DNA from: a virus
Length of the DNA stretch: 48,042 nt
Reading direction: 5' to 3' (one strand)
Virus record (IMG/VR): IMGVR_UViG_3300045051_000520
Span: 1 to 48,042 of that record
The stretch's first letter is position 1. The number at the start of each line of letters is the position of its first letter. The position numbers and the translations under genes are program-made. This document shows, in pieces, positions 1 through 48,042 of the stretch. The notes under the pieces were generated by a model that was given only the letters and a program-made list of their open reading frames with translations, searched no databases and had not been told where the DNA came from.

Positions 1-127
1 TGACGATGGGGGTGAGCCAGATCGCCTCGGCGGCCTCGCAACCCTTGGCGGCCATCACCTCGTCGATCTCGCACAGCAGGGTGTGGGCCATGTCGTCACC
101 GTTGTCCTGGACGCGGACCTTGACCCC
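1..127. repeat. Left copy of the 127-bp terminal identity (circular closure)
   Basis: Bases 1-127 are identical to 47916-48042. The identity lies inside a protein-coding gene, and joining the ends restores one uninterrupted frame. A length of exactly 127 is a common largest k-mer in short-read assemblers, so this is best read as the overlap of a circular or terminally redundant genome, not as a biological direct terminal repeat. Confidence 0.95.
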
Positions 128-28005: not shown

Positions 28006-28536
28006 CTACAGGGCCATGAACACGGCCAACTGTGAGGCCATGTCGTTCTCGTCCTTGAAGTGCTCGTTGAAGTGATCCCAGGTGTCCGAGTGAAGCTGGG
28101 CCCGGATGCTCATATCCACCCCCTCCTTCCGGTAGAAGGTGTGGGCCTCCACCAGATCGGCCAGGCGCACGAGGGCCTTCACCCGGTTCGTCGAGGTGGC
28201 CATGGGCCGGGTCATCGAGCCGCGCTTGGTCCAGAACGTCACCTCCATGAGTTCCAGGACCCAGCCAAGGCCCTTGGAGATGAGGAACTTCTTGGTGGGC
28301 GTGGGCATATCGCCCCAGTCCAACTCCGGGGTGTCATGGAGCAGACACCCCTCGTACATGTCCACCTTCTCCTGGGCCATGAGCGGCTCCCGGAGGTAGG
28401 CGGCCAGCTTACCGGCGATGAGGGCCACGGTGCAGGAATGCTCGGCTATGTTCTGCCGCTTGCGCACCTCCACCATATGCCACCGGTCCACGTGCCTGAC
28501 GGCCAGGATGTCTTCCTGTGTGAGGAAGCTCAGCAT
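28006..28536 (-). CDS. datZ: DatZ: HD-domain dATP triphosphohydrolase (176 aa)
   Basis: In Z-genome phages DatZ removes dATP so that only dZTP pairs with T during replication. The HD fold metal residues are visible: His33 (AEHSC), His67-Asp68 (CLLHDTPELDWGDMPTP) and Asp127 (RLADLVEAH). The length matches the known cyanophage S-2L DatZ (about 175 aa). The start at 28536 overlaps mazZ by 7 nt. A family alternative is a YfbR-like 5'-nucleotidase, but the purZ-mazZ neighbourhood points to DatZ. Confidence 0.88.
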   Translation of the reverse strand: MLSFLTQEDILAVRHVDRWHMVEVRKRQNIAEHSCTVALIAGKLAAYLREPLMAQEKVDMYEGCLLHDTPELDWGDMPTPTKKFLISKGLGWVLELMEVTFWTKRGSMTRPMATSTNRVKALVRLADLVEAHTFYRKEGVDMSIRAQLHSDTWDHFNEHFKDENDMASQLAVFMAL

Positions 28537-29237
28537 TGGGAGTCCCCGATGTGCTTGAGGAACCCGGTGGTGCCGTCCACCCTCCAGGTCCGTTTCCGGT
28601 TTATGTGCATCTTCTGGACGACGGCCCGGCCCACGTTTATGCCTTGCAGGTGGGCGATGTCCAGGATCATGATGACCAGATCCGCGTATTCCAGCGGGTC
28701 CTGCATCTTGCACATGATGAACTCCGGGATCTCCTCCAGCACCAGCTTGGAGAGGGACTGGTGGGCCGTCCTGTCGGGCTTGATGGTGTCCGCCCACTGG
28801 GCGATGTCCGCCTGCATCTCTTCGATGCTGGGGCTGGCCTCCGGGCCCAGGTCCGCGAAGGTCTGGGAGATGGTCGGAGGGGGCGGAAGCACGGCCTCGG
28901 GCTGGAGGTCCCCGGCCAGGCCCTCACGCTCCACGATGAGGGCCTTGAGCAGGTGCAGGTAGAGGATAGCGTCATCCACCCGCCCGGTGATGGGCTCGGA
29001 GTACTCGCGTTCCGTCCCATTCCCGATGTCTTTGATGTAGGTGGAGAGGCTGTCCAGGTGTTTGGTGAGGTAAACCCACAGGGCCTTCTCGGGGATTGTG
29101 TCGAGGGTGAGGCCCAGCCGCTTGAAGTTGGCAAGCTGGTCACGGTCCCCGGCATACTCGGCCCCTTTCGAGGCCGTGAGGTCCAGCATCTTCCTGTGGG
29201 TCTCTTGCAGGAGGGCGATGAACTGGGGGGTCCGCAT
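28530..29237 (-). CDS. mazZ: MazZ-like pyrophosphohydrolase, fusion of two MazG-type domains (235 aa)
   Basis: MazZ converts (d)GTP to (d)GMP, the substrate of PurZ. The C-terminal half (about 140-235) has the DUF550/MazZ pattern: IAQWADTIKPDRTAHQSL, LEEIPEF with Glu168-Glu169-Glu172, EYADLVIMILD with Glu183 and Asp186, and INRKRTW. The N-terminal half (1-105) is another MazG-like helical module (KGAEYAG, TKHLDSLSTYI, EPITGRVDDAILYLHLL) of the DUF1599/nucleotide-modification type. A Pro-rich linker (LPPPPT) joins them. ATG overlaps the purZ stop by 1 nt (TAATG). Which domain acts on dGTP needs assay; the other may use a different nucleotide. Confidence 0.82.
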   Translation of the reverse strand: MRTPQFIALLQETHRKMLDLTASKGAEYAGDRDQLANFKRLGLTLDTIPEKALWVYLTKHLDSLSTYIKDIGNGTEREYSEPITGRVDDAILYLHLLKALIVEREGLAGDLQPEAVLPPPPTISQTFADLGPEASPSIEEMQADIAQWADTIKPDRTAHQSLSKLVLEEIPEFIMCKMQDPLEYADLVIMILDIAHLQGINVGRAVVQKMHINRKRTWRVDGTTGFLKHIGDSQC

Positions 29238-30346
29238 TACTTGGCCCAACCCATGCTCTCGACCTGGTGGTAGGCGGGGCCCCAGCCGAGCCACGAGACC
29301 CGGGAACCCTCGGAACTGGCGATGGACTGGACCTTGGAGTAGAAGGCCACGGCGGGCTGGACGGCATCCACTAGCCCGAGGGTGTGGGGGTCCAGGTAGT
29401 TCATGTAGTTGAGGAAGATGTCGCAGGGGCCTGCGATCCAGAGGGCATGCTTCAACTGCGCTTCGCTGAAGGTGAAGACCCGGCGCACCTTCTTGGTGAC
29501 GGTGGTGCGCTCCATGAGCGGGATGCCAGCCATCTTGGACAGCTTCTCCCACGTGAGTTCCTCCATGTCGGGGAACACCGGGCCGCTGTGCCCGATCTCG
29601 TTGCCCTTGGCGTCATACTCGTTGCCGACGCGGATGGGGAAGGTGCGCATCACCAGGCAGGTCTGGGTCAGGAACCGGATGGGGACGGCCACGTCGTTCA
29701 TCACCTGCTCGGGGGTGACATCGCGGCCCGTGCAGGTGGGGTAGCTCATGCCCCGGTTGAGGCTGAGTTCCACACCCTGGGCGGACTCCACCTGGATGAG
29801 TTCGGCGGTGCGGATGATCCAGTCGTATTCCTCCACCGTGACCACATACTGGCCGATGGCCTTGAACAACTCGTCATCCTCGTGGAGGACGGCGCAATCA
29901 GCCGCGACACGGGGATAGCCCTCGTCCACCCGCATGATCTTTCGGCAGGCCGCCGAGGCCGTGCCCTTCCTGGTGCTCCCGATGGTCACGAGGGCACCCT
30001 CGCGCTCCTTGTCCACGGGCAGGACCACAGAGGCCCGGGGGTGGATCACGAGCCGGTGTCCGACCTCGTAGTCCTTGAGCATCTCGATTTCCTTCGCCAG
30101 GATGTTGGGGTCGATCATGGCCCCGGGCCCGATGAGCAGCTTGGCGTCCCGGTGCACGGCACCCGTGGGCACCTGCTGGGTCATGGTGGACTCGCCATCC
30201 TTGATGAAGGTGTGCCCGGCGTTGGGGCCGAAGTTGCACACGATAACGTCGGGCTTGCGGTCCAGGGCCAGCTTGCCAGCCAGCAGGCCCTTGCCACACG
30301 ATCCCCAGGCTCCGTCGAGGATGAGGTAAGCGGACGGCTTGTTCAT
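29237..30346 (-). CDS. purZ: PurZ: adenylosuccinate synthetase-like enzyme for 2-aminoadenine nucleotide synthesis (369 aa)
   Basis: Homolog of PurA that joins dGMP and aspartate to N6-succino-2-amino-2'-deoxyadenylate (ADGS), the dZMP precursor. The P-loop is WGSCGKG (residues 14-20): Ser16 replaces the catalytic Asp of PurA (WGDEGKG), the recognised PurZ change. Other PurA blocks remain: FGPNAGHTFI (compare NNAGHT), TIGSTRKGTASA, TGRDVTPEQVMNDVAVP and YDAKGNEIGHSGPV. The protein is shorter than bacterial PurA (about 430). AGGAG lies 7 nt before the ATG. It forms one operon with mazZ and datZ. Host PurB and kinases would finish dZTP. Confidence 0.93.
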   Translation of the reverse strand: MNKPSAYLILDGAWGSCGKGLLAGKLALDRKPDVIVCNFGPNAGHTFIKDGESTMTQQVPTGAVHRDAKLLIGPGAMIDPNILAKEIEMLKDYEVGHRLVIHPRASVVLPVDKEREGALVTIGSTRKGTASAACRKIMRVDEGYPRVAADCAVLHEDDELFKAIGQYVVTVEEYDWIIRTAELIQVESAQGVELSLNRGMSYPTCTGRDVTPEQVMNDVAVPIRFLTQTCLVMRTFPIRVGNEYDAKGNEIGHSGPVFPDMEELTWEKLSKMAGIPLMERTTVTKKVRRVFTFSEAQLKHALWIAGPCDIFLNYMNYLDPHTLGLVDAVQPAVAFYSKVQSIASSEGSRVSWLGWGPAYHQVESMGWAK

Positions 30347-30372: not shown

Positions 30373-30576
30373 TCATCGGCCCGGGTTGAGATCGTCCGAG
30401 TCCACGATTGTGGCGTCGGATTTCTTGACGATGTTGAGGTAGCCAGCGGGCTCTCTGCTCTTGTAAACATCGGGTGTATCTTTCCACTCTCCAAGGTAGG
30501 GCACTCTCTGGCCTACCTTACCAGCATACCACATCCCGGGGTCAGAGCACTTGAGAATCAGGAGTTCTTTAGCCAC
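30373..30576 (-). CDS. Hypothetical protein (67 aa)
   Basis: Starts with GTG at 30576 overlapping the end of the TSCPD gene, with GGAGAGGG upstream. Sequence MAKELLILKCSDPGMWYAGK, GQRVPYLGEW and IVDSDDLNPGR suggests a small beta domain. No family recognised. It lies between the TSCPD gene and purZ, in the same operon. Confidence 0.75.
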   Translation of the reverse strand: MAKELLILKCSDPGMWYAGKVGQRVPYLGEWKDTPDVYKSREPAGYLNIVKKSDATIVDSDDLNPGR

Positions 30577-30913
30577 GGCCCTCTCCGTAGTGCTCGTTCA
30601 AAAGCTTGAACAACTCGCGCAGGATATCGGGCTCCATCTTCAGGTTGGCGATGGTCTGTTGGAAGGCCACCAGTGGGATGCCGTGCTGGAGGCCCAGGCT
30701 CACGGACATCGCGAAGGCGTGGAGCATGTCCCGCGAGAATGAACCCTCGCGCTGGAAATCCAGGAAGATCTCGCCCAGGGCCCCGTCCGGGTACTCCCCG
30801 GTGGACACGTGCAGCTTGTTCACTCCGAACACCAGGGTGGCCCTGATGCCCCGTCGTCGGCTCGGTAGCCTGGTCCTTGTCGTCCGTGGGCTAACCATCT
30901 TGTTTTTCTCCAT
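30569..30913 (-). CDS. TSCPD-domain protein, ribonucleotide-reductase-tail-like (114 aa)
   Basis: Residues about 25-90 resemble the C-terminal accessory domain of class II ribonucleotide reductases: KLHVSTGEYPDGALGEIFLD, FQREGSFSRDMLHAFAMSVS, LGLQHGIPLVAFQQTI. Alone it has no reductase active site; stand-alone TSCPD proteins occur in phages and may bind nucleotides or a host reductase. Its place next to purZ makes a role in deoxynucleotide supply attractive. Start 30913 is preferred (AAGGA 8 nt upstream); an ATG at 30898 also has a GGAG. Confidence 0.8.
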   Translation of the reverse strand: MEKNKMVSPRTTRTRLPSRRRGIRATLVFGVNKLHVSTGEYPDGALGEIFLDFQREGSFSRDMLHAFAMSVSLGLQHGIPLVAFQQTIANLKMEPDILRELFKLLNEHYGEGRG

Positions 30914-31049
30914 ACTCAGCGTCCTTAAGCATGGCGTCCACGAGTTCGAACGCCTGGGGGTCCTCGTTGAAATACCGGGCTGGGATTCTCCTGTCGCCAA
31001 TCGCCTCGGCGGCCTGCTGGACCACGGCCCGGGTGTAAAGGATGGTCAT
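30891..31049 (-). CDS. Hypothetical protein (52 aa)
   Basis: MTILYTRAVVQQAAEAIGDR then PARYFNEDPQAFELVDAMLK; helical, acidic end. ATGA overlap with the HNH gene before it and 23-nt overlap with the TSCPD gene after it. No family recognised. Confidence 0.7.
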   Translation of the reverse strand: MTILYTRAVVQQAAEAIGDRRIPARYFNEDPQAFELVDAMLKDAEYGEKQDG

Positions 31050-31393
31050 GGCTTGCCCTTGCAGAACAGGACCGCGCATCCCCTCCGGGTGTTCTCCTTC
31101 GGGGTCACGGGCTCAAGGTGGTTGGGGTTGCAGCAGATACGGTTCCGGCACATGTGGTCCAGGTGGATGTCGTAGTTCAACGAGGTGTCATGGCAGACCA
31201 GCAAGCCGTAAACCACGCGATGCACCACGCGGTTCTTGCGGAGCCACTTTATCTTGCCATAGCCGTTGCCCGTGGTCCAGGCCCCCGTCCACTCCCAGCA
31301 ACCCGTGGCCGTGTCCACATGGATGCGGCTGGAGATCCGGAACGGAAGGGTCTGCAGTAGCCGGATCGCGCACCGTTCGAACAGGTTGCTCAT
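31046..31393 (-). CDS. HNH endonuclease (115 aa)
   Basis: HNH_3-type: CWEWTGAWTTGNGYGKI, HRVVYGLLVCHD, then HLDHMCRNRICCNPNHLEPV with the catalytic His and the Asn/His and Cys zinc-type pairs, and TPKENTRRG. Such genes are mobile and often sit beside DNA polymerase genes. GGAGG 7 nt before the ATG at 31393, which overlaps the polymerase stop (ATGA). A family relative lies at 567-869. Confidence 0.88.
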   Translation of the reverse strand: MSNLFERCAIRLLQTLPFRISSRIHVDTATGCWEWTGAWTTGNGYGKIKWLRKNRVVHRVVYGLLVCHDTSLNYDIHLDHMCRNRICCNPNHLEPVTPKENTRRGCAVLFCKGKP

Positions 31394-33213
31394 TTCGAAG
31401 CCTCCCACCAGTTGGGGCCCACACCAGCAGAGGACCGGATCGGAACGTCGAACTTTATGGGGCACCGTTCGCCGTCGAAGCACTCGACGATCTCGGTGAT
31501 GATCTTGCCCACACGCTCACCCTCCGAGCCCTTGGGGCGGCTGGTGTCGAACTCGTCATGCACGTTGAGCATGAGCCTGGCACTAGTACCCTTGAGGGCC
31601 CGGTGCACCTCCACCAGCTTGACCTTGAGGGCGTCAGCAGCAGAACCCTGGAAGATGAGCCCACCGGCCTTGTGCGTGAATCGCTTCCCCGGGAACCGGA
31701 TGTGTCTGCCGAGAACCGTCTTCACGAAGCCGCGAGACTTTGCCACGGATGAGGCTTTGCGCAGGAGGTTCTTGATGCCCGGCACATTCTGGTGGTACTG
31801 CTCGAACACCTCAAGGGCCTCGTCACCGGGGATGAGGAACTCCTTGCCGTGGCGGGCCTCGGACGTGTAGGGCAGGCCCATCTCCTGGGCCAGCTTGCCC
31901 TCGCCCATACCGAACACGAGCCCCAGGTTTATCTGCTTGGCGTTGCCTTTGATGCCAGGGGTCATGGACCGGGGCAGGCCAGTCATGTCGGACACCATCT
32001 GGTGAAAGTCCATCTCCGGGTCCCGCGCATACATCGCCAGGATCTTGGGGTTGGCCGCGTAGTGAGCGAACACGCGGAAGTCCATTTGGCTCCAGTCGTG
32101 GCAATCCCAGTCCTGGCCCGGGTCAGGCAGGAAGATGGACCGCACGATGGCCGCGATCTCCTTGTTGCGCTTATGGATCTGCTGGAGGGCCGGGTCGTTG
32201 CAACTCAGCCGCCCGGTGCCGGTGCCGAGGTCGTTGTCACTCTTGGTTTGGTTGAAGTTCGCGTGAACGATGCCGTTGTGGTGGTGCCCGAGGATGTGGC
32301 CCTTCAGGAATGTGTCCCGAGTCTTTAGCATCTCGCGAAGCCTGAGGATGAGCTTCGCGGCTGGGTGTTGCATCCGGCGCAGGCAATCCGCGTCGATGCT
32401 GGCCTTCCCCGCGTCCGTCTTCTCGGCTATGGTGCCGTCGTTCAAGATCCAGGTGCCGTCCTTGTCCTGCTTGGGCTCGAACAGCTTGTGGATGCTCCCG
32501 CTCGGGTTGGGGTTCACCTTGAACCCGGCCAACCGGTCGAGCTTCTCCTGGAGTGATACGGATTTCTCGGAGATATCGGCCATAGCCCGCTCCGCCGCGT
32601 CGAGGTCCACCCTCACCCCGCCGTGCTCCATCTCCAGCAGCACGGGCAGGAGGTCCATCTCCACGTCCACCACCCGGCCTAGGTCCTCGGATTCGAGGTG
32701 TGGCAACTGCCATTCATACAGACCCAGGGCGGTCCTGGTGTCCTGCTTCGCGTAGGTGACCAGCAGATCCCACGGGGCCCGGGACAGGTTCTTGGCCTGT
32801 GCCTGCTTGGTGGGGTTGCCCCCGAACATCTCCGCCAGGACCGCGTAGATGGACTTGTCCTTGCCGACCCCGAGGCAATCCCGCCCGATGCTGTCCAGGT
32901 CGTAGGTGAGCCGGTGCTCGTCCAGGAGGGCCGCGAACACCATCGTGTCGCCAACGGGCCCGTCGTATCTGACGCCATCCTCCCAGAGGAAGTGGAGGTC
33001 GAACTTCAGATTGTGGTTTACCAGCTTGCGGGCCTTGGGCAACTCGCGCTGTGCCCACCGTTGGACCACGGAGTCCCGGAAGTCGAAGGCGTAATCCCGC
33101 CCATCGGGCGTGGAAATGGCCATCATGGTGATCTTGTCCTGCCACCAGTGCAGGCCGGTGGTCTCAAGATCCACTACCATGAATGGATGCTGCTCCGGAA
33201 TTGGGAAATCCAT
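31390..33213 (-). CDS. dpoZ: DpoZ-like family A DNA polymerase with 3'-5' exonuclease (607 aa)
   Basis: Exonuclease motifs: VVDLETTG (Asp15, Glu17), NHNLKFD (Asp72), YAKQD (Tyr154, Asp158), so proofreading is intact. Polymerase motif A is DWSQMDFR, motif B (O helix) is GNAKQINLGLVFGMGEG and motif C is LNVHDEFD (about 552-553). No 5'-3' nuclease domain. In Z-phages a PolA variant (DpoZ) prefers dZTP over dATP, partly through its exonuclease. The O helix carries Leu and Phe at the sites of E. coli Pol I Phe762 and Tyr766. Name rests on linkage to purZ, mazZ and datZ. RBS GAGAGGAG and a promoter at 33293-33321. Confidence 0.88.
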   Translation of the reverse strand: MDFPIPEQHPFMVVDLETTGLHWWQDKITMMAISTPDGRDYAFDFRDSVVQRWAQRELPKARKLVNHNLKFDLHFLWEDGVRYDGPVGDTMVFAALLDEHRLTYDLDSIGRDCLGVGKDKSIYAVLAEMFGGNPTKQAQAKNLSRAPWDLLVTYAKQDTRTALGLYEWQLPHLESEDLGRVVDVEMDLLPVLLEMEHGGVRVDLDAAERAMADISEKSVSLQEKLDRLAGFKVNPNPSGSIHKLFEPKQDKDGTWILNDGTIAEKTDAGKASIDADCLRRMQHPAAKLILRLREMLKTRDTFLKGHILGHHHNGIVHANFNQTKSDNDLGTGTGRLSCNDPALQQIHKRNKEIAAIVRSIFLPDPGQDWDCHDWSQMDFRVFAHYAANPKILAMYARDPEMDFHQMVSDMTGLPRSMTPGIKGNAKQINLGLVFGMGEGKLAQEMGLPYTSEARHGKEFLIPGDEALEVFEQYHQNVPGIKNLLRKASSVAKSRGFVKTVLGRHIRFPGKRFTHKAGGLIFQGSAADALKVKLVEVHRALKGTSARLMLNVHDEFDTSRPKGSEGERVGKIITEIVECFDGERCPIKFDVPIRSSAGVGPNWWEASK

Positions 33214-33327: not shown

Positions 33328-34092
33328 TCAGCGGGACTCGATGCCGAGGTAGTGCGCGACGGTGTGGCGGGTGTCCATGTCCATGTCCGTCACGTTGGAC
33401 CACATCCACCGCAGGTACGAGCGGGGGACCTCCTTCCACGGGTCGCCGTAGTGCTTGTTACCGAACCGGCACGTGCCCAGCAGAATGGGCTCCTTCGTCC
33501 AGTCGATGATCTGCAGGATGTCCACGAAGCTGGGCTCTGAGCATCGGTTCAGGTACTCGCCCAGGAGCATGCGCAGATTGGCCGCCGTGACGATTGTATC
33601 GTACAGGGCATGGTGGGCAGACAGGCCCTCCGGGATGCTCACTTCGACGTTGTGCTGGTAGCGGATGTACTGGTTGTTGCTGTGCTCGTCATCGGGCCAC
33701 AGCTTCTTCGCCAGGCGCATGGTGCAAAGCCAGGGCACGGACGCACGGCCCGGGGCCACGGCCTCCATGAACTTGGAATCGAACTCGGCATTGTGCGCCA
33801 CGAGCACGTGGCACCGGGAGGTGGGGTCGTTGTCCCACCAGTCGGCCATGGCGTCCTGGGGGCTGGGCTGGCCGTCCAGCATCTTGTTGGTGAGGTGATG
33901 CACAGCGGACGCCTGGGCAGGGATCTGGATGCCCGGGTCCATGATCCGGTAGGAGTGCTCATCGGGGGCCTGGTGGTCCATCAGCGGGCCCACCCGCACG
34001 GCGGCAAACGAGCACGGGCGGTCCTTCTCGGGGTCGAACCCGGTGGTCTCGAAATCGACCACTCCGAATATGGCTTGGTATGGGTGCATCAT
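33328..34092 (-). CDS. DEDDh 3'-5' exonuclease, DnaQ/ExoX-like (254 aa)
   Basis: N-terminal exonuclease: VVDFETTGFD (Asp-x-Glu), LVAHNAEFDSKF and HHALYDTIVTA with the His-x4-Asp of the DEDDh class. The C-terminal part (FGNKHYGDPWKEVPRSYLRWM) is the ExoX-like C-terminal module. It may proofread or trim DNA ends in recombination. Start ATG at 34092 overlaps the SprT-like stop; a second ATG follows directly. An extra exonuclease beside a proofreading polymerase could help exclude dA from the genome (inference). Confidence 0.88.
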   Translation of the reverse strand: MMHPYQAIFGVVDFETTGFDPEKDRPCSFAAVRVGPLMDHQAPDEHSYRIMDPGIQIPAQASAVHHLTNKMLDGQPSPQDAMADWWDNDPTSRCHVLVAHNAEFDSKFMEAVAPGRASVPWLCTMRLAKKLWPDDEHSNNQYIRYQHNVEVSIPEGLSAHHALYDTIVTAANLRMLLGEYLNRCSEPSFVDILQIIDWTKEPILLGTCRFGNKHYGDPWKEVPRSYLRWMWSNVTDMDMDTRHTVAHYLGIESR

Positions 34093-34703
34093 CCCTCCTT
34101 GGGGGGTTTGGTTTCAAATACCATGGGCTGGTGAGAGCACGGGCAGATCGGGGCCCCCGCGTCCTCGGCCCACTTCCTGGTGGTCCTGATGATGTAGCCG
34201 CACACGGCGCACTCAGCCTTGATGAGGCGGCCCTTCTGGGCAGGACCCTTGGTGCTCACCCCGCGCTGGGTGTCCAGACTCCCGTGGGGGTACGAGCCGG
34301 TGGACTCCAGGATCGGGGCGATGTACTCCTTGAACGCATCGCCGGGGGTGGTGGCCCGCATGGGCCCCTCAAGGCCGATGGCCAGGGCCACGGCCCGGAA
34401 TGCCCCGCCGTGCTTCTGGTCGAGCCCAACCGCCGCATGGGTGAGTTCGTGTGCCAGGATGGCCGCTGCCTTCAGCGGGTCGTCCACCTGGGGGTGGATG
34501 AAGATCTCGTGGTGCGCGTCCTTGGAGCACTCCCGGACCCAGCATTCACCGATCCGGTTGGACTTCTTGCCGGTGCTGGGGAAGCCACACGACACGCGGT
34601 AGGGTGGCAACGGGTACTCCAGGCTCTCGAACCTGGGCTCCATGGCCTTGGCCACCCGGTTCAGCCATTCCTCACGGTTCTTGGTGAAGGCCGCTGTGCT
34701 CAT
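34089..34703 (-). CDS. SprT-like zinc metalloprotease (204 aa)
   Basis: HELTHAAVGLDQKHG holds the HExxH zinc motif (His85, Glu86, His89) and a downstream His, as in SprT/Spartan proteins. A C-terminal zinc ribbon (CAVCGYII ... ICPC) follows. Spartan-type enzymes cleave proteins crosslinked to DNA and need DNA to act; the phage version could clear host proteins from Z-DNA or mature a replication protein, but the target is unknown. ATGA-type overlaps on both sides. Confidence 0.85.
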   Translation of the reverse strand: MSTAAFTKNREEWLNRVAKAMEPRFESLEYPLPPYRVSCGFPSTGKKSNRIGECWVRECSKDAHHEIFIHPQVDDPLKAAAILAHELTHAAVGLDQKHGGAFRAVALAIGLEGPMRATTPGDAFKEYIAPILESTGSYPHGSLDTQRGVSTKGPAQKGRLIKAECAVCGYIIRTTRKWAEDAGAPICPCSHQPMVFETKPPKEG

Positions 34704-34873
34704 TCGGTATCCCTCTCATAGCGCAGGTTGTTCCTGCTGTCGAACCGGTCATCCTCTTCCACCTGCTCACGCTTGAACGTGGCCACTCCCTGCTTGTTCC
34801 TGCCGGTGGCCTTCTCGCCCCGCTTGACCCGGTAACCCAGGATCTTCCAGTCGTCGAATGTCTCGTCCTTCAT
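34700..34873 (-). CDS. Small basic protein (57 aa)
   Basis: ATG at 34873 overlaps the helicase stop (ATGA); the stop TGA overlaps the next ATG at 34703. Sequence begins MKDETFDDWKILGYRVKRGE, then KATGRNKQGVATF and a charged end. The WKILGYRVKRGEKAT part recalls the N-terminal motif of ArdC-type antirestriction proteins, but the gene is too short to assign. Confidence 0.72.
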   Translation of the reverse strand: MKDETFDDWKILGYRVKRGEKATGRNKQGVATFKREQVEEDDRFDSRNNLRYERDTE

Positions 34874-36288
34874 ACGCACTCCATCACTGGGAGGTCAAAG
34901 GGGTTGTCGCCCTGGATGATGTCCAGCCGGTGCCGGGCCCTGGTCACCCCAACATACCACACCCGGACCTCGTTGTCGTCCATGGCCTCGTAGGTCCTGG
35001 CCCCCATGGAGTTCATCAGGATCACGTGGTCCGCCTCGGCACCCTTGGCGGAATGGATGGTGGAGACCCGGACCTTGGCCTTGCTGAACAGGTCCACTTT
35101 CGACAGATACTTGGCCCGCTCGTAGGGGATGTCCAGGCAATCCCACCAGGGGGCCTCTGTGATGCTGCCCGGGGCCTGCAGCAACTGGGCCCGCCAGGAC
35201 GGCCTGACCACCCGCTTGAGGGCCCCCAGGGCGGCCATGGAGATCTCCGAGCCCTCCTTCAGGCGGAGGTAGGCCCTCACGGCGTTCGCATACCGGTCCT
35301 CAAACGCGGAGGACAGGCCGGGGCCCACGATGGAGTAGGGGGTGTTGTGGGCGATGAGCCACTCCTCCACCTCTGCCCTCGTCGTGTGGTTCCGGTATAG
35401 CACGAGCGTGTCTTGGGCCCCGGGGGCGTCCAAGTAGGCCAGGGATGTCCAGGAGGCCAAGGAACCCATCTCCGAGCGCGGGGAGTACACCTTCTCGACC
35501 CGTTGGCCGATCTTGGATGCCACGGCCTGGGCCAGCCGGTGCACAGTAAGGGGGATGCGGTGGCTCTGGGATAGGACCTCGACCTCCGCCCCCTCGTGCC
35601 TGCGGGCCATTCCGTGGGCGTCCGCCCCGGCCCAGGCGTAGATGGCCTGGTCGTCGTCCCCGGCGAACGTCACGCTCGGGGTGTGCTTCGCGATCTCGTC
35701 CACCAGCCGCCACTGGAGCAGGCTGAGGTCCTGGGCCTCGTCCAGGAACAGCTCCTTCAGGCCCAGGTCCGGGCTCGTCCGGGTGGCCCCCTCCAGGAGG
35801 TCGTTGAAATCCAGGTAGCCGTAGGCATTCTTCCAGCCGGTGTATCCCTTGCTGAATAGCTGGGCCATACCCGGGTCCACGTCCGGACGGTAACGGTTCC
35901 AGGCTTCCATGATCGGGGTGCACGTCACTGTTGCCAGGTTGTGCAACTCCATGAGTTCATCCCCGATAAGCTGGGGGCCCGGGTCCTGGCTGGATCGGCC
36001 CGAGATCGGGTAGCCGATATACTGGGAGAACTCCTCCAGTTTCGCGTCGTCCACCATCTGCTCACGGCTGGCCCCGCTTATTTCGTAGGCGAGGCTGTGC
36101 AGAGTCCGGATGGTCTTGCTCCGTGAGATGTTGAGCCGGTGCAGGGCCTCGTTGGCCGCTGCCCGCGTGAAAGCGAAGAAGCCTATCTCCGCAGGCTTGG
36201 CCCCCCGGTCCCGGACCTCGGCCATCCGCTCCAGTAGGAGGGTGGTCTTCCCGCAACCCGGGGGGCCGTAGAATACGCGACGGCTCAT
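34870..36288 (-). CDS. UvrD/Rep-like superfamily 1 helicase (472 aa)
   Basis: Motif I GPPGCGKTT (8-16), Ia FAFTRAAANEA, II FLDEAQDLSLLQ, III FAGDDDQAIYAWAG, IV SQSHRIP, V VSTIHSAKGAEADHVIL and VI VGVTRARHRL are all visible, so it should be an active ATP-driven DNA helicase of the compact phage type. It would unwind DNA at forks or in recombination. The ATG at 36288 overlaps the previous stop by 4 nt. Confidence 0.93.
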   Translation of the reverse strand: MSRRVFYGPPGCGKTTLLLERMAEVRDRGAKPAEIGFFAFTRAAANEALHRLNISRSKTIRTLHSLAYEISGASREQMVDDAKLEEFSQYIGYPISGRSSQDPGPQLIGDELMELHNLATVTCTPIMEAWNRYRPDVDPGMAQLFSKGYTGWKNAYGYLDFNDLLEGATRTSPDLGLKELFLDEAQDLSLLQWRLVDEIAKHTPSVTFAGDDDQAIYAWAGADAHGMARRHEGAEVEVLSQSHRIPLTVHRLAQAVASKIGQRVEKVYSPRSEMGSLASWTSLAYLDAPGAQDTLVLYRNHTTRAEVEEWLIAHNTPYSIVGPGLSSAFEDRYANAVRAYLRLKEGSEISMAALGALKRVVRPSWRAQLLQAPGSITEAPWWDCLDIPYERAKYLSKVDLFSKAKVRVSTIHSAKGAEADHVILMNSMGARTYEAMDDNEVRVWYVGVTRARHRLDIIQGDNPFDLPVMECV

Positions 36289-47781: not shown

Positions 47782-48042
47782 TTACTTGCCCTTCTCGGCG
47801 GCTTCGGCGGCCTTGCGGAACATCGAGCGGAGCATATTGCCCAGGTTCATGCGGATCATGCCGTAGTTCAGATGGGCGTAGCGGGCCTGGAGGGCCTTCA
47901 CGTCCAGGTTGTTCTTGACGATGGGGGTGAGCCAGATCGCCTCGGCGGCCTCGCAACCCTTGGCGGCCATCACCTCGTCGATCTCGCACAGCAGGGTGTG
48001 GGCCATGTCGTCACCGTTGTCCTGGACGCGGACCTTGACCCC
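47782..48042 (-). CDS. C-terminal part of the junction-spanning 206-aa protein
   Basis: This is the end of the gene that starts at 487. The last 50 residues contain the pattern YAHLNYGMIRMNLGN followed by a basic tail ending KAAEAAEKGK. The nearby protein at 46530-47123 ends with the matching YGHLNPGMQRMNLGN, so the two share a C-terminal domain. Function is unknown; the conserved, basic, helix-forming tail would suit nucleic-acid or partner binding, which is inference only. Confidence 0.88.
   Translation of the reverse strand, partial: GVKVRVQDNGDDMAHTLLCEIDEVMAAKGCEAAEAIWLTPIVKNNLDVKALQARYAHLNYGMIRMNLGNMLRSMFRKAAEAAEKGK
47916..48042. repeat. Right copy of the 127-bp terminal identity
   Basis: Identical to bases 1-127. 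Removing one copy leaves a circle of 47,915 bp. Physical ends (cos or pac) cannot be deduced from this overlap. Confidence 0.95.

Follow-up and report, generated by a model that had tools for sequence, protein, structure and literature searches.

Among the phages with a known gene cluster for 2-aminoadenine (Z) DNA, Acinetobacter phage SH-Ab 15497 and Salmonella phage PMBT28 carry the genes for a UvrD-type helicase, the polymerase DpoZ, PurZ, MazZ and DatZ in this order, and their MazZ proteins are fusions of an N-terminal DUF5664 domain to a C-terminal MazZ-1 domain, the kind of MazZ-1 fusion reported so far in the work that we compared (PMC12884076, PMC8342488). Cyanophage S-2L has overlapping purZ, mazZ and datZ genes in the same order, its MazZ has no N-terminal domain, and a PrimPol is found instead of DpoZ (PMC8065100).

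The locus described here shares with SH-Ab 15497 and PMBT28 the order of the five genes, the two-domain build of MazZ with its MazZ-1 C-terminal domain and the DpoZ clade, and with S-2L the order of the triad, the overlapping genes and the MazZ-1 catalytic residues. Unlike S-2L, it has both DpoZ and a MazZ N-terminal domain; unlike SH-Ab 15497 and PMBT28, whose PurZ proteins are only 37-38% identical to the one found here, that domain belongs to the family phrog_6802. The nearest kin are two IMG/VR contigs, L026 and L027, with PurZ proteins 57-59% and 53% identical, respectively; they have the same set of phrog_6802, MazZ and DatZ, with phrog_6802 and MazZ encoded by separate genes, the former lying between purZ and mazZ. 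The locus thus belongs, as a divergent representative, to the known PurZ/MazZ/DatZ/DpoZ kind; its fusion of MazZ to phrog_6802, a domain not linked to the Z pathway before, is new and without description in the published work on the Z pathway that was compared (PMC12884076, PMC8342488).

The cluster and its genome

The window, that is, the whole stretch of DNA that was analysed, is the entire IMG/VR virus record IMGVR_UViG_3300045051_000520 (48,042 nt), which comes from an uncultured siphovirus-like phage. The 127 bases at its start are repeated exactly at its end, so that the contig closes on itself and probably represents a complete genome of 47,915 bp. It contains a tailed-phage gene set (terminase, portal, major head, tape-measure and tail genes) and replication genes for an AEP primase, an SNF2-type helicase and a UvrD-type helicase; no relatives among known phages were found by megablast, no tRNAs were found in the window and no methyltransferase was found among the window proteins scanned. 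The features relevant to this work are the following:

1..127, no strand: left copy of the 127-bp exact terminal repeat (right copy 47916-48042)
28006..28536, minus strand: datZ, predicted HD-domain dATP triphosphohydrolase, 176 aa (residue table; DatZ clade)
28530..29237, minus strand: mazZ, 235 aa, phrog_6802 domain plus MazZ-1 domain in a single open frame
28539..28829, minus strand: C-terminal MazZ-1 (DUF550) domain, residues 137-233 (7ODY match; catalytic residues kept)
28917..29237, minus strand: N-terminal phrog_6802 domain, residues 1-107, with an Nmad1/DUF1599-like predicted fold (phrog_6802, 5.9e-16)
29237..30346, minus strand: purZ, putative succino-amino-deoxyadenylate synthetase, 369 aa (6FM1 match, Ser for Asp13, PurZ clade)
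31390..33213, minus strand: dpoZ, phiVC8-type family A DNA polymerase with 3'-5' exonuclease, 607 aa (NF038380, 7PBK, L455/F459/G548)
34870..36288, minus strand: UvrD-type helicase of the same replication module (Pfam UvrD-helicase, 7.8e-24), placed relative to dpoZ as in SH-Ab 15497 and PMBT28

A preliminary description of this DNA had proposed three coupled genes for PurZ, MazZ and DatZ at 28006-30346. These coordinates turned out to be exact: the ATG of PurZ begins at base 30346, and the stop codon of DatZ ends at base 28006. On the minus strand, purZ (30346-29237), mazZ (29237-28530) and datZ (28536-28006) form intact ORFs that overlap one another, in the canonical order with mazZ in the middle, each with a match to its family. 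The PurZ stop and the MazZ start have one base in common (TAATG), and there is an overlap of 7 nt (ATGCTGA) between the MazZ stop and the DatZ start; the three genes are therefore probably translationally coupled. The upstream DpoZ gene, the two domains of MazZ and the exact terminal repeat go beyond that description.

Between dpoZ and purZ there is also a pair of small minus-strand genes (30569-31000 and 31046-31483) that gave a weak match to a TSCPD domain (ribonucleotide-reductase-associated) and a sub-cut-off match to an HNH endonuclease, and a phrog_6361 protein encoded at 34089-34703, minus strand, gave a weak, sub-cut-off match to a SprT-like metalloprotease.

The PurZ protein belongs to the Pfam family Adenylsucc_synt (PF00709, 7.7e-27) and matches the NCBIfam PurZ model NF038379 over its full length (9e-72) with 241.8 bits, below the annotation cut-off of 300 bits. 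The PurZ of phage OH, in whose genome purZ is accompanied by mazZ-2 and datZ, falls equally below it (241.3 bits, against 349.8 for S-2L PurZ), indicating that this cut-off excludes divergent members. The structure of phiVC8 PurZ (PDB 6FM1) was matched at 6.7e-58 and the best PurA only at 1.1e-28. The motif GSCGKG presents a Ser at the catalytic Asp13 of E. coli PurA (GDEGKG in the same alignment), and this Ser is found in 139/139 homologues from IMG/VR and genome contigs with a readable motif; nearly all of the residues that contact dGMP and ATP in S-2L PurZ (PMC8342488) are also kept. In a 49-row tree, whose outgroup was one PurA on a long branch with archaeal PurA left out, it pairs with the protein of L026 (support 99) on the phage PurZ side, apart from the PurZ0 proteins of Gordonia, Microbacterium and Arthrobacter phages and from E. 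coli PurA. From these homologues, PurZ is predicted to synthesise dSMP from dGMP and aspartate.

An alignment scan of IMG/VR for PurZ yielded 498 contigs (roughly 500 stretches with PurZ among 2.9 million contigs), and scans with the single window PurZ or MazZ as query did not find relatives. Several PurZ homologues lack a DatZ or MazZ match on their locus, and any DpoZ match there is weak: L175-L193, L200, L203 and L204, from contigs of Clostridia, Bacilli and Mycoplasma MAGs, and, with the same pattern, the IMG/VR loci L029, L034, L046, L049, L063, L069, L073, L084, L093, L095 and L098. They have the PurZ serine wherever the motif is readable and may form another lineage of PurZ whose partner genes are different.

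DatZ matches the Pfam YfbR-like HD family (1.1e-12). Compared with S-2L DatZ, for which the residue roles have been described (PMC8065100), its HD metal ligands, R19, W20 and K81 are kept, and two changes are conservative (I22 to Met, as in ZP6 and Bm1, and K116 to Arg). The family phrog_7076 ('dATP triphosphohydrolase') was rejected as a discriminator between DatZ and YfbR, since E. coli YfbR outscores the window DatZ, and the DatZ assignment therefore rests on the tree. In this tree, built with the YfbR of E. coli and eight YfbR-like proteins of phages, the window protein lies in the DatZ clade (99/97), beside L026 and apart from E. coli YfbR; one long-branch YfbR-like row, P26218, falls within the same clade.

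The upstream DpoZ scores 764.5 bits against NF038380 (cut-off 500), matches PDB 7PBK at 2.7e-111 and is 46.6% identical to the DpoZ of Acinetobacter Z-phages, and it has the residues L455, F459 and G548 of the phiVC8 clade (PMC8599892). Being of the phiVC8 type, it gives strong support for a Z-genome that is independent of the purZ-mazZ-datZ triad.

A MazZ fused to a phrog_6802 domain

The C-terminal domain of MazZ matches S-2L MazZ (PDB 7ODY) at 1.3e-16. The metal ligands E35, E38, E50 and D53 (S-2L numbering) are all kept, as are I56 and D60, which have been credited with the choice of guanine in S-2L MazZ (PMC8342488). The preliminary description had taken the grouping of the three proteins with ordinary PurA, MazG and YfbR as an outcome that would refute its reading; instead, the trees place PurZ with phage PurZ and DatZ with DatZ, and the MazZ C-terminal domain resembles S-2L MazZ, including the residues that bind metal and nucleotide.

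The N-terminal domain belongs to a family annotated as of unknown function. It occupies the same place as DUF5664 in other MazZ fusions, and we rejected its identification as DUF5664: PF18909 had no match in the window MazZ, against about 1e-24 for the MazZ of SH-Ab 15497 and PMBT28, and no significant sequence match linked the two domains. By sequence, then, it is not the DUF5664 of the known fusions. An AF2 model of the domain (pLDDT 92) has four helices, and the best-named Foldseek matches were Nmad1/DUF1599 proteins (probability 1.00, TM 0.70-0.73, E 0.0045-0.012), the match labels giving Nmad1 as 'nucleotide modification associated domain'; unnamed viral proteins were also matched. This likeness is by predicted fold only, as none of 36 phrog_6802 members matched PF07659 (DUF1599) at E<=1 and no significant sequence match to Nmad1 was found. 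Like the N-terminal domain, the Nmad1/DUF1599 and DUF5664 phage domains are small and all-helical; when a DUF5664 model was the Foldseek query, the 50 matches listed were essentially all proteins of the DUF5664 type. In the PDB, the fold search with the N-terminal domain gave no significant match, the top-ranked being a MazG-like pyrophosphatase (E 2.3).

Twelve residues are invariant in the 36 diverse phrog_6802 members (K24, Y28, N37, F38, K59, H60, E81, I83, R86, D89, Y93 and L96), and all of them except I83 and L96 look like a putative active or binding site. An IMG/VR scan with ten members as queries led to 65 loci, 37 of which carry Z-cluster genes (30 with a PurZ above 100 bits and 7 with other pieces on cut contigs); because the scan was seeded with members from Z-phages, the exact Z fraction is biased upward. 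Set against the number of PurZ stretches in IMG/VR given above, the association with the Z cluster is far beyond chance. The remaining 28 loci show no Z-cluster gene, some of them on short contigs, and stand-alone members are also encoded by phages of Gordonia and Microcystis that are not on the PurZ list. Fusion to MazZ was found only in the window among the 65 loci, and in Z loci other than the window and its nearest kin the domain is a separate gene or part of another ORF, usually directly after datZ. Five Z loci (L039, L051, L070, L077 and L080) encode it within longer ORFs that extend beyond it on the N- or C-terminal side, and the domain may join different partners.

A possible restriction-site footprint

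If Z blocks restriction enzymes that read A, Z-phages would be expected to relax the avoidance of palindromes that contain A and to keep that of GC-only palindromes. For 6-bp palindromes, the observed/expected ratios of GC-only and A-containing sites were 0.59 and 0.84 in 41 non-redundant Z loci, 0.79 and 0.77 in 48 random IMG/VR contigs, and 0.57 and 0.70 in 20 non-Z loci with the phrog_6802 family. The log-ratio test between Z loci and random contigs gave p 2.8e-9 for groups that are unmatched for host, GC and lifestyle, and above 56% GC Z and control loci differ mainly in the GC-only class. The pattern of the Z loci agrees with the expectation and is possibly a genomic footprint of Z protection against restriction.

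The window itself has ratios of 0.57 (GC-only) and 0.66 (A-containing). Observed and expected counts were 0/33 for CGGCCG, 0/31 for CCGCGG and 0/20 for GCCGGC among the GC-only sites, and 0/28 for AGGCCT, 0/17 for CTCGAG, 0/11 for GTCGAC and 1/15 for CAGCTG among those that contain A. We rejected this profile as proof of Z in the phage, as it has no relaxed avoidance of A-containing sites; since the window still avoids them, complete replacement receives no independent support from the profile. Z-tolerant restriction enzymes, a recent acquisition of the cluster or an incomplete replacement would each fit it, and 2/11 high-GC Z loci are as depleted in A-containing palindromes as the window. The absent palindromes (CGGCCG, CCGCGG, AGGCCT, GCCGGC and CTCGAG) may name the restriction specificities of the host.

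A model of the pathway and its alternatives

The enzyme families are assigned here by sequence, and the activities would be those of the characterised homologues (PMC8342488, PMC8065100, PMC8599892, PMC12884076). Accepting this, the C-terminal domain of MazZ would convert dGTP to dGMP, PurZ would join dGMP to aspartate, and PurB and kinases of the host would complete dZTP; DatZ would remove dATP, and DpoZ would copy the genome with preference for dZTP over dATP. The N-terminal domain of MazZ, standing in the place of DUF5664, is most likely a second domain that handles purine nucleotides beside MazZ, with a job that would resemble the hydrolysis of dATP and dGTP demonstrated for DUF5664 of Arthrobacter phage Wayne (PMC12884076); its activity is proposed, its association with the Z cluster observed. 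A Z-genome, which the preliminary description had considered probable, is very likely, the PurZ and DatZ trees, the MazZ match, the active-site residues and DpoZ all supporting it. All adenine may be replaced, as the preliminary description inferred, and restriction resistance would then follow.

We hold it as highly probable that this phage, with its purZ, mazZ, datZ and dpoZ, makes 2-aminoadenine DNA, with the MazZ N-terminal domain as a proposed second nucleotide-handling domain. The intact triad in its canonical order, the gene order in common with SH-Ab 15497 and PMBT28 and the conserved active-site residues of PurZ, MazZ, DatZ and DpoZ speak for Z-DNA; against it count the PurZ score below the NCBIfam cut-off, the avoidance of A-containing palindromes and the Met and Arg at I22 and K116 of DatZ. 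That the PurA-like gene serves to supply AMP, as an auxiliary adenylosuccinate synthetase of the ordinary type, in a phage with a normal genome seems to us extremely improbable: its PF00709 family and the missed PurZ cut-off would agree with it, but the Ser for the catalytic Asp, the far stronger match to PurZ than to PurA structures and the adjoining mazZ, datZ and dpoZ argue against it. A working pathway with partial replacement, in which dATP leaks in and the virion DNA is a mixture of A and Z, is unlikely. It would account for the depletion of A-containing palindromes (0.66 compared with 0.84 in the Z loci) and is consistent with the change of two substrate-contact positions in DatZ with respect to S-2L; nevertheless, the predicted dZTP-preferring polymerase and dATPase are both present and intact, some high-GC Z loci are equally depleted, and Z-tolerant enzymes or a recent acquisition would produce the same profile.

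As for phrog_6802, we tentatively propose that it is an enzyme of Z-DNA metabolism without earlier description, which probably works with MazZ as a hydrolase of purine nucleotides. The members in phages without a detected Z cluster count against a role in the pathway, and these, namely the loci without Z-cluster genes and the stand-alone proteins of Gordonia and Microcystis phages, would also suit a structural or oligomerising part that is not an enzyme and was fused by chance of gene order. This seems somewhat less likely than not, however, in view of a ten-residue invariant set that resembles an active or binding site over such diverse members, and of an association with the Z cluster that recurs in several arrangements.

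In phages with Z-DNA one letter of the genetic alphabet is exchanged throughout, and the palindrome comparison suggests that Z protection leaves a footprint that can be read from sequence in natural phages. Enzymes that control the Z pool beyond PurZ are still emerging, such as DutZ and DmtZ in 2026 (PMC12884076), and the fusion to MazZ and the repeated co-location mark phrog_6802 as one more candidate component of the Z pathway.
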